Of a DNA stretch of 64,000 bases, positions 14,569 to 23,274 are shown in pieces. How positions within the stretch are numbered: position 1 is the first letter of the stretch; every line of letters starts with the position of its first letter. Origin of the DNA: Myxococcus sp. RHSTA-1-4. Its GTDB lineage: Bacteria; Myxococcota; Myxococcia; Myxococcales; Myxococcaceae. The stretch spans positions 62,001 through 126,000 of the forward strand of contig NZ_JAIQDG010000004.1 in assembly GCF_020037125.1 (NCBI RefSeq), given 5' to 3'. The notes under the pieces are model-generated. The model was not told the origin of the DNA. It worked only from the letters and a program-made list of their open reading frames with translations, and made no database searches. Made by a program: the position numbers and the translations under genes.

Positions 14569-15171
14569 TCACTCCTGAGGATAGAGAGCCATCACCGCCG
14601 TTCGGAACGGCGGCGTTTCCAGCGCGCGGGAATCGGGAGGGCGCACCCAGACGGCGAGCGTGCCGAAGGGCCGGTACGTCTCGTCGTGGACCACCAGGTC
14701 GCGGCGCGTGAGGCCGCGCACCTCGCCCATCAAATCCAACAGGGAGCCCCGCCCGGCGCGCGCGGCCAGGGCGGTGTCGTCCTCCGGGGACTCCGGAAGC
14801 GCGTCCCCGGAGGGCCCGGCCGACAGCCCCAGCTCGGGCCGGGGCGCTCCCTCCGTCTCGAAATCCTCGACCGGCGCCACCCGCCCCGGCGCCACGGGCC
14901 GGAGCCAGAGCACCAGCGCGGCCAGCCCCAGGGCCGCCACGGCGCCGGCGGAGGCACGGCGGCGGACGACGCGGCGGCGCACCTCGCCCAGTACGGCCTC
15001 GCGGGAGACGGGGGCCAGGGCGGGCGGTGACGGCAGGCGCAGCGCGGAGGCGGACGCGTGCAGGGTGGCCAGGGTCCGGCAGTCCTCGCAGCCCGCCAGA
15101 TGGGCCTCCACCTCCGGAGACCGGGGCTGGCTCGCGTCCACGAGGGCGGCGGCCGCGTCGTGACATCTCAT
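14569..15171 (-). CDS. Zinc-binding anti-sigma factor (ZAS type)
   Basis: A 200-aa single-pass membrane protein. The N-terminal cytoplasmic part holds the ZAS signature H-x3-C-x2-C (HLAGCEDC, about residues 24-31). A membrane helix follows at about 75-92 (AGAVAALGLAALVLWL), then a periplasmic domain. The start at 15171 lies in an ATGA overlap with the sigma gene, the usual arrangement for ECF sigma/anti-sigma pairs, so the assignment is firm although the periplasmic domain is not recognised. Longer frames over the sigma gene are shadows. Confidence 0.82.
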   Translation of the reverse strand: MRCHDAAAALVDASQPRSPEVEAHLAGCEDCRTLATLHASASALRLPSPPALAPVSREAVLGEVRRRVVRRRASAGAVAALGLAALVLWLRPVAPGRVAPVEDFETEGAPRPELGLSAGPSGDALPESPEDDTALAARAGRGSLLDLMGEVRGLTRRDLVVHDETYRPFGTLAVWVRPPDSRALETPPFRTAVMALYPQE

Positions 15172-15740
15172 GGTGTGTCTCCTTCCAGTGCGTCCGCGGC
15201 CTTCAGCTTCTTGAGTGCGCGATAGAGGTGGATGCGGACGGTGCCCCGGCCGATGCGCATGGCCTCGGCGATGGCATCCAGGTCCAGGCCCTCCAGGTAG
15301 CGGAGGGTGAAGGCGGTGGCCTGCTGCGCGGGGAGCGTCCGCAGCGCGCGGCCGAAGGCGTGCCACCGCTCGGCCCCGGCGAAGTGCTCCTCGGGTGAGC
15401 GCGACGGGGCGGGCCCCAGGTCCAGGGCCTCGCGCACCACGTTCCACACCCGGCGCCGGCGCAGGTGCCCCATGGCGCGGGACACCAGGATGCTCCGCAG
15501 CCATGAAGGCCCGGCTTTCAGGTCTCTCAGCGTGTGGCGCTTCTCGTAGGCGTCCGCGAGGGTGGCCTGCACCAGGTCTCTCGCCTCTTCCCCATCCCAG
15601 ACCAGCCTCCGGGCCAGCCGCAGCAGCCCGCCCTGCTCCGCCTCCAGGAGCGCGTCGAAGCCCGGCGCGGCCGGGGCTCGCGGCTGGCTCCGAGGCTCTT
15701 CCAGGATGGCGGTGCCCTTCACGGCGAAACGACCTCCCAT
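15168..15740 (-). CDS. ECF-family RNA polymerase sigma factor
   Basis: About 190 aa. Region 2 is visible as LARRLVWDGEEARDLVQATL and region 4 as LPAQQATAFTLRYLEGLDLD, followed by an HTH (AIAEAMRIGRGTVRIHLYRA). The gene is paired with its zinc anti-sigma factor by a 4-nt overlap. The ATG at 15740 has only a short GGAAG upstream. A GTG at 15722 with GGGAGG is a plausible alternative start that removes six residues. It is divergent from a GNAT gene; I could not identify an autoregulated ECF promoter in the 54-bp gap. Confidence 0.85.
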   Translation of the reverse strand: MGGRFAVKGTAILEEPRSQPRAPAAPGFDALLEAEQGGLLRLARRLVWDGEEARDLVQATLADAYEKRHTLRDLKAGPSWLRSILVSRAMGHLRRRRVWNVVREALDLGPAPSRSPEEHFAGAERWHAFGRALRTLPAQQATAFTLRYLEGLDLDAIAEAMRIGRGTVRIHLYRALKKLKAADALEGDTP

Positions 15741-20248: not shown

Positions 20249-22465
20249 TCACATCCGGATGCCCGCCTGCACGCCCGGCCACATGATGAACTTCCGGGGC
20301 CCCTGGCGGGAAAGGCTGCTGAGCGCGGTGATGGGCTCGCCCTCCACCGAGTACAGGAGGTTGAACGAGGGCCCGCCGATGAAGGCGAAGCGCTTCGCGA
20401 GCTGAATCCCCCCCATCACCCGGAGCTGATTCAGGATGCGGTCGCTCGTGAAGCTCGCATCCCACGCATAGACGCCGCTCGTCACCGCGTCCACGTCGAG
20501 GAAGATGCGCTCGGACAAGGGGAGGTGCGCGCCGATGCCCAGGCCCAGCGTCCAGTGGCTCGGCCCTCGCGTGTCACCGTAGGCGCCCATGCCCGCCACG
20601 AACGTGGTGTAGAAGTGGCGGCTGCCCACCTTGATGGCGGCGTTGGCGAGGTTGGTGTCACTGCCGTACACCTCCACGTGGAACTGGCCGTTGCCCACGA
20701 TGCTCAGCAGGCCCACCGGGAGGCCGGACTCCATCTCCGTCGCGACGTTGACGAGGCCGAGCTGAAGGCCCTTCATCTTCCCCGCCACGTTGATGATCCC
20801 GAGCTGCATGCCCGACACGTCGCCGCCCACGTTGAGGAGCGAGAGCTGCGCGCCCCGGGCCGCGTCCGCCCAGTTCAGGCCCACCGACATCTGGACGCCG
20901 GACATGTGCCCCTGGACCATGTTGAGGCCCACCGCGCCCTGAACGCCTTCGAAGTCTCCCGCCGTCCAGTTGGAGCCCACCGCGAGCTGCGTGCCCTCCA
21001 TGGAGGTGGAGGACAGGTTGCCGCCCACGGAAAGCTGCCCCATCAGGCCGCCCTGGCGCGCCACGTTGACGCCCACCGAGGCCTGCACGCCCCCCACCCT
21101 GTCGCCGGCCCAGTTCCCTCCCACGGCGACCTGCACGCCCGTCACGTCCGCGCGCGCCACGTTGCCGCCGATGGCCATCTGGACACCCCTCACCGAGTCC
21201 GTGGCCCAGTTCGCGCCCAGCGCCACCGCCGCGCCGTTCAGCCGCGCCATGCGGCTGGCCCCCAGGGCGAAGGAGAAGGTGTTGTCCACCGGCCCGCCGA
21301 AGAGGTCGTTGGTCTGCACCGATGGGAGCAGGGCCACGTTGATGGGGCGGTACTTGTTCGGGGACACGTCCATGGAAGACGCCACCGTGCCCCCGCCGCG
21401 CATGGCCGTCAGCTCCAGGCTGACCGGGCGGAAGGCGGACTCGCTCAGCACCGCGCGCCCGCCCTGGTCCAGCACCAGCTCCGCCTGCGAGGCCTCGCCG
21501 TGCGCCTCGCGCATCACCGTGTAGCGTCCCGGCTGGAGGCCCAGCTCGGTGGCGCGCCCCGCGAACTTCTTCAGCTCCACCACCAGCCGCCCCGGCGCGT
21601 CGCGCACGTAGAGGCGCCCGTCGACCATCTCCCCCAGCACCAGCACCGCCGCGGTGGAGCGCAGGTCCGTCATCACCAGCTCGCCGGTGCCGGCCAGCTC
21701 GATGTCATAGGCGGGGTGCTGCGCGCCGGCCCGTGTCTGCTCCGTGCGCGCCAGCGTCTCGTGGAAGGCGAACTGGTACGCCTCGTGGAGCGTCACCCGG
21801 CCGTCGCCGGTGGCATCCGCCGCGCCGCGGAGGCCGGACACCAGGTTGTGGGTGAAGAACGAGCCACCGATGCGGTCGGACTCCTGGGACACCTCGTCCT
21901 CGGACGAGGAGGTGAGGATGGCGTGCCCGCGCACGGCGGTGGACGCGTCCACCAGGAAGGCCGGCCGCCGCACCCCGCCCTTCTGCCGCGCCAGCGTGCC
22001 GGACGCGCACGAGTCGAGGATGGCGATGCGAACGTCCGCCGGCAGCGACTCCAGCGCCTGCCGCAGCTCGCGGTAGCCGAACCTGTCCTTCTGCAGCAGC
22101 AGGCCCTCTTCATCCGAGTGGCCCGAGTAGTAGATGAGGGCCTCGGTGCGCCCGCCGGAGGCCTTCGCCGCGGAAATCATCCCCTTGAAGCGCGTCAGCG
22201 CGGCCTCGAACTCCGAGCGGCCGCCCTCCATCAGCATCAGCCGGTCCTGGGGCTGCACGCCGCCGAGCTCCTCCAGCACCTCCCCGAAGGAGCGCGCGTC
22301 GGTGACGGCGTAGCGCAGCTTCGCGCGGCCGGGGCCACCGTCGTTGACGCCCACCAGCAGCGCGAAGCGGCGCACCGGCCGGGTCGAAGCCGCCGGCGCG
22401 GCGGCGGGCGCGGACGACGCCAGCGCGGGAAGGAGTAGGAGCGAGAACAGGAGCGACCGCGTCAT
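20249..22465 (-). CDS. Exported caspase-family (C14) protein with a GVQ/GGN surface-repeat C-terminus
   Basis: A 738-aa protein. A signal peptide (RSLLFSLLLLPALASSAPA) is followed by a caspase-like domain (about residues 32-240) with catalytic His116 in YYSGHSDEEG and Cys153 in ILDSCASG. A calcium-loop-like segment DATGDGRVTLHE lies at about 217-228. After a beta linker, residues about 405-580 hold about ten units of 14-17 residues built on G-x-Q-x-x-x-G-x-N (GVQVAVGGNWAGDRV, GVQMSVGLNW), like the LA_2272-type surface repeats. The last 150 residues look like outer-membrane strands. Its ATG shares one base with the stop of the actD-like gene (TGATG). Position suggests it is the fifth act gene. 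Confidence 0.8.
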   Translation of the reverse strand: MTRSLLFSLLLLPALASSAPAAAPAASTRPVRRFALLVGVNDGGPGRAKLRYAVTDARSFGEVLEELGGVQPQDRLMLMEGGRSEFEAALTRFKGMISAAKASGGRTEALIYYSGHSDEEGLLLQKDRFGYRELRQALESLPADVRIAILDSCASGTLARQKGGVRRPAFLVDASTAVRGHAILTSSSEDEVSQESDRIGGSFFTHNLVSGLRGAADATGDGRVTLHEAYQFAFHETLARTEQTRAGAQHPAYDIELAGTGELVMTDLRSTAAVLVLGEMVDGRLYVRDAPGRLVVELKKFAGRATELGLQPGRYTVMREAHGEASQAELVLDQGGRAVLSESAFRPVSLELTAMRGGGTVASSMDVSPNKYRPINVALLPSVQTNDLFGGPVDNTFSFALGASRMARLNGAAVALGANWATDSVRGVQMAIGGNVARADVTGVQVAVGGNWAGDRVGGVQASVGVNVARQGGLMGQLSVGGNLSSTSMEGTQLAVGSNWTAGDFEGVQGAVGLNMVQGHMSGVQMSVGLNWADAARGAQLSLLNVGGDVSGMQLGIINVAGKMKGLQLGLVNVATEMESGLPVGLLSIVGNGQFHVEVYGSDTNLANAAIKVGSRHFYTTFVAGMGAYGDTRGPSHWTLGLGIGAHLPLSERIFLDVDAVTSGVYAWDASFTSDRILNQLRVMGGIQLAKRFAFIGGPSFNLLYSVEGEPITALSSLSRQGPRKFIMWPGVQAGIRM

Positions 22466-23274
22466 CACGGCACCTTCTCCAACGTGAAGGAAGTCTGGGC
22501 CAGGGTATCCGGCAGCGGGAGCGGCCGGAGGCGTGCCTCGGAGGGCTGGCGGGCGAGCACGCGCGCCGCCTCTATCACGAGCGCCACGTCCAGGGGCTGC
22601 CTGGAGGTGACGAAGACGAAGCGCTCGAAGCCGGGCGCGTCGTCCAGCTCGTAGGCGTGGGCGAGTGACACGGGCTCGCCGGAGGTCAGCGCCGTGGACC
22701 CGGTGACGGTCGCCGGGTGGTGCAGCGTCACGGCGCCGCGCCCGTCCACCGATACCACCACCCCATAGGGGCGTCCGCCGGACACGTAGCTGAGCTGCAG
22801 CACGTCCCCGCGCCGGGCCCGCGCACGGTCGGCGAGCAGCTCCGGCTCGCTCTCGCCCGTGCCCTGCCGGTGCACGCGCAGCATCGGGGTGCCCTTGATG
22901 CGCTCGGTGTCCGCCCACGCGAGCGGGGATGACGGCAAGGTGGGCGCGGCCAGGTAATGCCCGGCGGACAGGAAGAACAGCACGAGCGAGGCGGCCACCG
23001 GGACACCGAGCGACACGTCCCTCCGCCCATCGAGCGCGGGCCTCCGGGCCGCCTCCATGCGGGCGAGGCTGGCGCGGCGTCGCTCCACCTCGGCGGCGAC
23101 GGCGGCGGGCGGGTGGCGCTCCAGGGTGCGGCGAGAGTCCTCCTCCAGCCGGGCCAGGCGGGCGGCCCCATCCGGCTCGCGCTCCAGCCGCGCGCGAGCG
23201 TCGGCCAGCACGTCCGAGGGCAGCTCGCCCAGGGCGACTCGCTCCAGCAACCAGTCAGGGGTGCTCAGGGCCAT
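22465..23274 (-). CDS. actD: ActD-like protein, single-pass membrane protein
   Basis: A 269-aa protein. The cytoplasmic N-terminus (WLLERVALGELPSDVLADAR) is helical and anti-sigma-like, with an E/R-rich helix, then one membrane helix (VPVAASLVLFFLSAGHYLAA, about residues 95-114). The outer domain resembles DUF4384/FecR-like beta structure (RGDVLQLSYVSGGRPYGVVV, VTLHHPATV). The start ATG at 23274 follows GGAGG at 10 nt. It is translationally coupled to the caspase gene. The name rests on its place after actA-actB-actC-like genes and on my memory of the annotation used for this family; the molecular role is unknown. Confidence 0.6.
   Translation of the reverse strand: MALSTPDWLLERVALGELPSDVLADARARLEREPDGAARLARLEEDSRRTLERHPPAAVAAEVERRRASLARMEAARRPALDGRRDVSLGVPVAASLVLFFLSAGHYLAAPTLPSSPLAWADTERIKGTPMLRVHRQGTGESEPELLADRARARRGDVLQLSYVSGGRPYGVVVSVDGRGAVTLHHPATVTGSTALTSGEPVSLAHAYELDDAPGFERFVFVTSRQPLDVALVIEAARVLARQPSEARLRPLPLPDTLAQTSFTLEKVP

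Follow-up and report, generated by a model that had tools for sequence, protein, structure and literature searches.

A shared basic-Gly motif suggests that an exported caspase of Myxococcus sp. RHSTA-1-4 may cut the membrane-bound repressor encoded by the neighboring gene

A link between sigma factors and caspase homologs was described in 2012, when genes for a sigma-70 factor and a caspase homolog were reported in one operon for four of the five metacaspases of Myxococcus xanthus, and also in Anaeromyxobacter, Haliangium, Sorangium, Ralstonia and Fibrobacter (main text of PMC3501461); that main text nowhere uses the terms 'anti-sigma', 'periplasm' or 'barrel'. Extracytoplasmic function (ECF) sigma factors of the ECF54 type have protease neighbors, including proteins with the caspase-related CHAT domain, and proteolytic control without an anti-sigma factor has been proposed for them (available text of PMC8999054). 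In the FecA-FecR-FecI system an outer-membrane barrel with an N-terminal periplasmic part is combined with an inner-membrane anti-sigma factor, an ECF sigma factor and proteolysis of the anti-sigma factor (available text of PMC11637429). Here we compare with these systems a gene of Myxococcus sp. RHSTA-1-4, located in a stretch of 64,000 nucleotides (contig NZ_JAIQDG010000004.1, positions 62,001 to 126,000; hereafter the window, in which all coordinates are counted), together with the gene directly upstream. The first encodes a 738-residue protein joining a caspase domain to a beta-solenoid and a C-terminal barrel (20249..22465, minus strand, ATG at 22465, stop codon ending at 20249), and its start overlaps the stop codon of the second (TGATG), which encodes a membrane anti-sigma-like protein.

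The likeness to the sigma-metacaspase operons (PMC3501461) consists of a caspase homolog found with a sigma factor, although the window gene itself has no adjacent sigma gene. ECF54 systems are similar in that a caspase-related protease lies near an ECF sigma factor, whereas here the caspase is predicted to be exported and the suggested substrate is anti-sigma-like. From FecA the window protein differs in its 8-stranded barrel and in the caspase domain that replaces the signaling domain; in fact, no FecA-type STN or TonB-dependent receptor domain was found in it by Pfam at E values up to 1. With the prokaryotic metacaspases and orthocaspases (peptidase family C14) it shares the caspase fold, the His-Cys dyad and an Asp two residues before the Cys, but unlike these it appears to be exported and carries in addition a solenoid and an outer-membrane-type barrel. 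A literature search, poor in subscription papers, found neither an outer-membrane caspase nor a caspase that cuts an anti-sigma factor. Sigma-linked bacterial metacaspases are already known, and what the sequence would add here is the solenoid-barrel architecture and the reading of an anti-sigma protein as the substrate.

We hypothesize, tentatively and well aware that it may prove wrong, that the outer-membrane-anchored caspase acts as the site-1 protease of its anti-sigma factor, in an arrangement like that of FecA-FecR-FecI. The hypothesis is drawn from the combination of an exported caspase expected to accept a basic P1 residue and an operon partner, a membrane anti-sigma, whose stalk carries a conserved basic-Gly bond. 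The exported caspase would be held at the outer membrane by the barrel and the solenoid, the latter as a spacer, with its catalytic domain in the periplasm. The barrel or the solenoid would sense a signal in the envelope, upon which the caspase would be activated through a self-cut at K162-G163, and the active enzyme would cut the anti-sigma-like protein at K127-G128, in the stalk just outside the inner membrane, this site-1 cleavage leading to release of the sigma factor. The proposed geometry comprises an outer-membrane barrel with an N-terminal periplasmic effector, an inner-membrane anti-sigma and a cytoplasmic sigma factor, and self-processing and anti-sigma cleavage are proposed to share the same bond type.

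A sequence-only reading of this DNA had described a caspase domain joined to a repeat module, and this description is borne out. PF00656 matches residues 32-222 (E 1e-10; 42.2 bits against a cut-off of 21.4) and is the only domain found in the 738-residue protein by Pfam at E values up to 1. An AlphaFold model of the full protein, built with 31 homologs (mean predicted local distance difference test score, pLDDT, 79.1; predicted template modeling score, pTM, 0.45), has a caspase fold at residues 31-258 (21692..22375), which a second structural aligner matched to MALT1 (Z 15.6, root mean square deviation, rmsd, 2.9 over 169 residues), Arabidopsis metacaspase-4 (Z 15.2, rmsd 3.2 over 194 residues) and animal caspases (Z 14-15). 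Both the PF00656 score and the His-Cys dyad place the protein in peptidase family C14; its score with NF047832 (caspase, EACC1-associated type), 61 bits, is well under the curated cut-off of 140. Judged from the alignment the catalytic dyad is intact, H116 (22118..22120) and C153 (22007..22009), the sole Cys of the protein, being invariant in all 31 homologs. Beyond residue 35 a single Cys is present in 30 of the 31 (L057 has two), which fits an envelope cysteine protease. D151, two residues before the Cys, presumably corresponds to the residue of the basic-P1 pocket of paracaspases and metacaspases. Prokaryotic caspases have been described as cutting after positively charged residues (available text of PMC6426788). 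The proposed self-processing site, R160-x-K162-G163-G164 (21974..21988), is invariant among the 31 and lies in the low-confidence loop after Cys153 (pLDDT below 50 at residues 155-193). Export is predicted from a signal peptide at residues 1 to about 20 (22406..22465), read by eye as a hydrophobic core with no lipobox Cys, and the homologs compared for this feature likewise have a hydrophobic N-terminus. Taken from sequence and model, the order of domains is signal peptide, caspase, an all-beta domain (residues 264-348 by DSSP of the model; 21422..21676), beta-solenoid and 8-stranded barrel.

The caspase domain also contains a calcium-type loop of the EF-hand type, DATGDGRVTLHE, at residues 217-228 (21782..21817), with the pattern D217-x-T-x-D221-G-x-x-T225-x-x-E228, in which D217, D221, T225 and E228 are invariant in the 31-homolog alignment. 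This loop had been suggested as a possible gate of the protease. A comparison within the genome of RHSTA-1-4, which covered 16 distinct proteins under 17 locus names (L001 and L094 being one gene; L088 and L089 have no caspase), found a DxxxDGxVxxxE-type loop in 11 of the 14 other distinct caspases, with or without a solenoid, L002, L003 and L004 being those in which it is missing. Since the loop is a common trait and not special to the window protein, the idea of a special gate is weakened and was dropped. Calcium-independent activation has been proposed for orthocaspases as a class in one review (available text of PMC5756287).

The upstream gene (22465..23274, minus strand) encodes a 269-residue protein, the proposed substrate, with an N-terminal domain, a transmembrane helix at residues 87-105 (22960..23016, from hydropathy), a variable-length stalk and a C-terminal domain that is DUF4384-type in the family. 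The protein has no Pfam or NCBIfam match of its own, and neither zf-HC2 nor a Cys at the HxxxCxxC zinc motif position was found in it. It aligns, however, with proteins encoded upstream of other caspases of the same genome; three of these paralogous proteins were scanned, of which L082 and L087 exceed the zf-HC2 cut-off and L083 lies just below it, and DUF4384 is sub-threshold in L082 and L083. From this alignment and the domain order, and although the zinc ligands are gone, the upstream gene likely encodes a membrane anti-sigma-like protein. Such proteins without zinc ligands are found in clades that have an adjacent sigma gene as well as in clades that do not, so that zinc loss is not tied to sigma loss. 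An anti-sigma-like gene is located upstream in 24 of the 31 homologs, window included, and in nine of the 31 (L050, L057, L059, L061-L065 and L068) it is preceded by a sigma-70/ECF gene, that of L062 having been checked by Pfam; in L066 and L067 the contig starts too close for a preceding sigma gene to be judged. Metagenome-assembled genomes (MAGs) labeled Latescibacterota and Gemmatimonadota are among the nine, and the adjacent sigma gene is present in outgroups and paralogs.

The proposed cleavage motif in the stalk, R125-I-K127-G128 (22891..22902), stands out by its conservation. Among 20 non-redundant members of the anti-sigma family G128 is found in all and K127 in 19, the exception having R, and both rank among the five positions with the highest conservation. 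Of 37 full-length members (seven from the same genome and 30 loci from 12 other genomes, the 30 being part of a longer match list), 36 have KG after the helix, including all 33 that have a caspase in the fetched stretch; L144, which falls outside this scripted count, has the stalk T-A-R-G as read from L090. The set was then widened by 60 stretches with divergent caspases and by 30 loci of the divergent caspase L092 of the same genome and its relatives. On the side of the enzyme, [KR]G occurs at Cys+5 to Cys+14 in 162 of 164 caspase loops, and in 44 of the 45 non-redundant ones against 5.9 in shuffles. On the side of the anti-sigma, 136 caspase-linked stalk windows were reduced to 83 by near-copy removal, and 77 of these contain [KR]G, whereas 1000 shuffles gave 34.9 (standard deviation 4.3, maximum 48); [DE]G, [KR]A, [KR]S, [KR]P and [KR]L showed no enrichment over shuffles in the same windows. 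Six windows have no [KR]G, of which L071 and L073, at a minimum, were judged by eye to be something other than anti-sigmas, and L224 and L237 have R-S. In control anti-sigmas without a caspase the motif was at chance level, being found in six of 24 against 5.3 in shuffles (28 loci were taken, of which one gave no match and three were discarded because the window was short or the helix unclear; a sigma gene is present in 23 of the 24), and one of the six, L280, aligns with almost the entire anti-sigma model and may itself be a member of the caspase-linked group. The family falls into two deep groups, one with mostly RxKG loops and KG stalks and the other with xSRG-type loops and RG stalks. When the first [KR]G of loop and stalk were paired in 168 of 279 loci, of which 165 gave a caspase, the raw tally was 62 K-K, 49 R-R, 9 K-R and 6 R-K, with 10 having no site on one side and 29 no partner; several of the mismatches are due to a second [KR]G in the window examined. 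Strict K/R matching of partners was rejected as a rule and is regarded as a clade tendency only. The matching basic-Gly motif leads us to suggest that the caspase may cut its neighbor's membrane-bound repressor.

The main alternative is that the sigma/anti-sigma pair only controls expression, that the caspase has other periplasmic substrates, in envelope remodeling, autolysis, predation or fratricide, and that [KR]G is structural or accidental. Operon proximity by itself names no substrate, and KG is retained at barrel-only loci where the caspase is gone; moreover, cell-death roles have been suggested for Myxococcus metacaspases and fratricide mentioned for exported ones (main text of PMC3501461). 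An enrichment confined to one of six dipeptide classes and to caspase-linked anti-sigmas is less easily explained in this manner, as is the position of [KR]G in a variable-length stalk between the helix and the DUF4384-type domain, and we consider this alternative possible but rather doubtful.

Several observations nevertheless weigh against cleavage of the anti-sigma by the caspase. [KR]G may have a structural role in each of the two proteins, and its counts are not independent events because the caspase-linked anti-sigmas are related. L137, L162 and L165, which have no caspase and lie beside a barrel-only gene, keep KG (a fourth caspase-less member, L183, does not). For 29 of the 165 caspases no helix-bearing gene was found directly upstream (15 K-type, 14 R-type), the fetched stretch ending too close for a few of them. 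When pairs were limited to those with exactly one candidate per side, which left out 111 with more or none, 20 of 25 agreed (11 K-K, 9 R-R) and five differed (4 R-K, 1 K-R). Seven of the 31 homologs, the class of the paralog at C40 (L052-L056, L058 and L073), have no anti-sigma neighbor, and in the closest clade relatives of the window anti-sigma type, L089 and L050, no Pfam match was found. The ECF54 precedent, where proteolytic control was proposed without an anti-sigma, counts slightly against our hypothesis as well, and neither the full nor the solenoid model had a Foldseek match with an E value of 0.001 or better. Finally, the window clade has no adjacent sigma gene, none lying beside the window gene or beside L039-L049, and the nearest one in the window is 4.5 kb downstream (about 15168-15740) and is followed by its own zinc-type anti-sigma; similarly placed downstream sigma genes are found in six relatives. 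Because the adjacent sigma gene is missing, the target sigma factor of the window clade would be encoded elsewhere or have been lost by the pair. The downstream sigma factor is presumably not the missing partner, since it has its own zinc-type anti-sigma and no [KR]G was found after the helix of the latter. This second sigma gene and the anti-sigma directly after it occupy 14569-15740 on the minus strand, and no caspase was seen there.

The remainder of the window protein would serve as its anchor. The sequence-only reading had counted about ten G-x-Q-type repeats of 14-17 residues in residues 405-580, and these figures held: all nine copies of G-x-Q-x(3-5)-N in the protein lie within residues 427-573, against a mean of 0.43 and a maximum of 4 when residues 405-580 were shuffled 5000 times, and relaxing Q to Q/M/L gives 10 in the region and 11 in the whole protein (shuffle mean 1.35, maximum 6). 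Autocorrelation of the repeats peaks with 0.30 at lag 16 and 0.29 at lag 32, values of 0.03-0.16 being obtained for all remaining lags in the range 8-35, and the units of 14-17 residues include a 14-type, GxQxGxxN, and a 16-type, GxQxxxGxN. By a crude regular-expression count their number varies among homologs by single units, from about 8 to 16. Modeled alone, the repeat region (residues 371-590; 20696..21355) reached a pLDDT of 93.4 and a pTM of 0.80, and according to this model the repeats are a beta-solenoid, a call made with the second aligner and within the families of its match list. The model is matched best by 3p4g, a beta-helical antifreeze domain (Z 19.7, rmsd 2.5 over 218 residues), and HMW1 comes next among the well-superposed structures (Z 15.1, rmsd 2.7 over 200). 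By Z alone, two entries for YdcK (17.3-17.4) fall between these two structures, but at rmsd 9.5-9.6; indeed YdcK, GlmU, LpxD and LpxA superpose at rmsd 9-11 despite high Z, against 2.5-4.0 for 3p4g, HMW1, tapirin and HxuA. YdcK, GlmU, LpxD and LpxA are left-handed helices. The repeats also match the NCBIfam LA_2272 surface repeat (NF047436; 32.3 bits against a cut-off of 25) in two stretches, the best at residues 552-577, but this 30-position model covers in its best stretch only the 14-residue units and leaves the caspase and the barrel outside.

After the repeats, eight strands were found at residues 594-737 in the AlphaFold model, in agreement with the outer-membrane-like strands expected there from sequence. 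Residues 592-738 (20252..20692) superpose on the designed transmembrane barrel 6x9z, which has eight strands (Z 14.8, rmsd 1.5 over 109 residues), and on OprF 4rlc (Z 14.0, rmsd 3.0 over 122 residues), and on this modeled structure they are an 8-stranded outer-membrane barrel separate from the solenoid. The tail is not disordered in these predictions. The repeats had been pictured as a beta-helix or as part of a 'repeat barrel'; the former stands for the repeats, while the barrel is a separate C-terminal domain. The idea that the repeats supply additional strands of one large barrel was dropped because they fold alone, because the final 147 residues correspond to closed barrels of eight strands and because repeat number varies by single units. 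The protein ends in GIRM, hydrophobic at -1 and -3, with no aromatic residue and no Gly at -6, and several paralogs end in FRF, WNF or YRF. The score with the VC2662 family (NF047437), 26 bits, is far under the cut-off of 140. A comparison of the barrel by hhalign with the C-terminal parts of solenoid-less paralogs (nine proteins singly and five as one alignment) gave a best probability of 25% (L083), the rest being below 4%; since hhalign gave no homology, those parts are called barrels by their look only.

The chain runs from an enzyme through a beta-solenoid to a C-terminal barrel, an order that resembles that of a type V autotransporter, and the sequence-only reading had proposed a self-presenting surface protease, in which solenoid and caspase would be carried outside. 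The resemblance of the solenoid model to the secreted beta-helix of HMW1 speaks for such a path. The translocator barrel of type V autotransporters, however, presumably has 12 strands, whereas the window barrel models with eight, which implies no passenger export. Because an 8-stranded barrel would offer the N-terminal caspase no passage and because the partner gene encodes an inner-membrane anti-sigma-like protein, surface presentation is unsupported and the earlier proposal is, on the model, probably wrong. We consider this path unlikely and a periplasmic caspase the likelier arrangement.

The gene is widely retained. In the searched genomes of the genus a strong match (67-80% identity) is present in 27 of 27, that of RHSTA-1-4 (G000, an 11.2-Mb assembly) included, and in four of them it consists of two pieces of one frame; the nearest named records belong to Pyxidicoccus, with a best segment 78% identical, and to Myxococcus, with 69-73%. 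Relatives of some part of the protein occur in 57 of 61 genomes, full-length relatives with 38% identity over the best segment are found in MAGs labeled Latescibacterota and Gemmatimonadota, and a solenoid-barrel model matches 103 of 195 genomes of the phylum, in 38 of 90 genera. The genome of RHSTA-1-4 holds, at C40, a second caspase-solenoid-barrel protein 48% identical to that of the window, at C53 (L088) a solenoid-barrel protein without a caspase, and at C45 (L089) a protein with only a signal peptide and the barrel. Since copies occur with and without caspase or solenoid, the parts are modular. Strong matches to the barrel-only gene are present in 26 of the 27 genus genomes, G012 being the exception, and the position of this gene beside sigma and anti-sigma genes would favor the view that an outer-membrane sensor uses the caspase fold only for binding or as a scaffold, which we regard as very improbable given the invariance of H116 and C153.

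Some further features of these loci may be recorded. In L088 an Ala/Pro/Glu-rich N-terminal linker stands in the place of the caspase before the solenoid-barrel. L089 (C45:196438-197819 and the adjoining sigma gene) consists of a sigma gene, an anti-sigma-like gene with RIKG and the signal peptide and barrel gene, and is an operon of the same type as the caspase operons, minus caspase and solenoid. Two caspases of the same genome, L091 (C73) and L093 (C64), have a lipobox-like N-terminus and A-T-C in place of D-x-C at the active site; IKS or TKS replaces KG in their post-Cys loop, and the stalks of their partner anti-sigmas still have KG. Just downstream of the C40-type paralog, at L081 and L052, lies a lipoprotein-like gene with an HSHPWSPS.MS..D-type stretch, which resembles the JAMM/MPN metalloprotease motif. 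Contigs titled Comamonas sp. KCTC 72670 (L042 and L053) carry Myxococcus-like loci 68-69% and 44-45% identical to the window protein, and this record may be mislabeled.

Extending the site-1 protease hypothesis to the family, and with slightly more reserve, we may envisage that a family of exported caspases in myxobacteria and some distant phyla are dedicated site-1 proteases for their operon-partner anti-sigmas, using one shared [KR]-G signature in activation loop and stalk. To this the window copy would add an outer-membrane solenoid-barrel anchor, making a trans-envelope relay for gene control and not for cell death. Of most interest are the partner gene and the cut-site signature that it shares with the caspase, and the finding bears on the roles and substrates of bacterial caspases. 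With a conserved partner, a predicted cut site and a genus that is amenable to genetics, the caspase-substrate question can be tested directly. If true, the hypothesis would offer a reason why myxobacterial metacaspase genes lie in operons with sigma factors, and would assign caspases to signaling through regulated intramembrane proteolysis and not to cell death.

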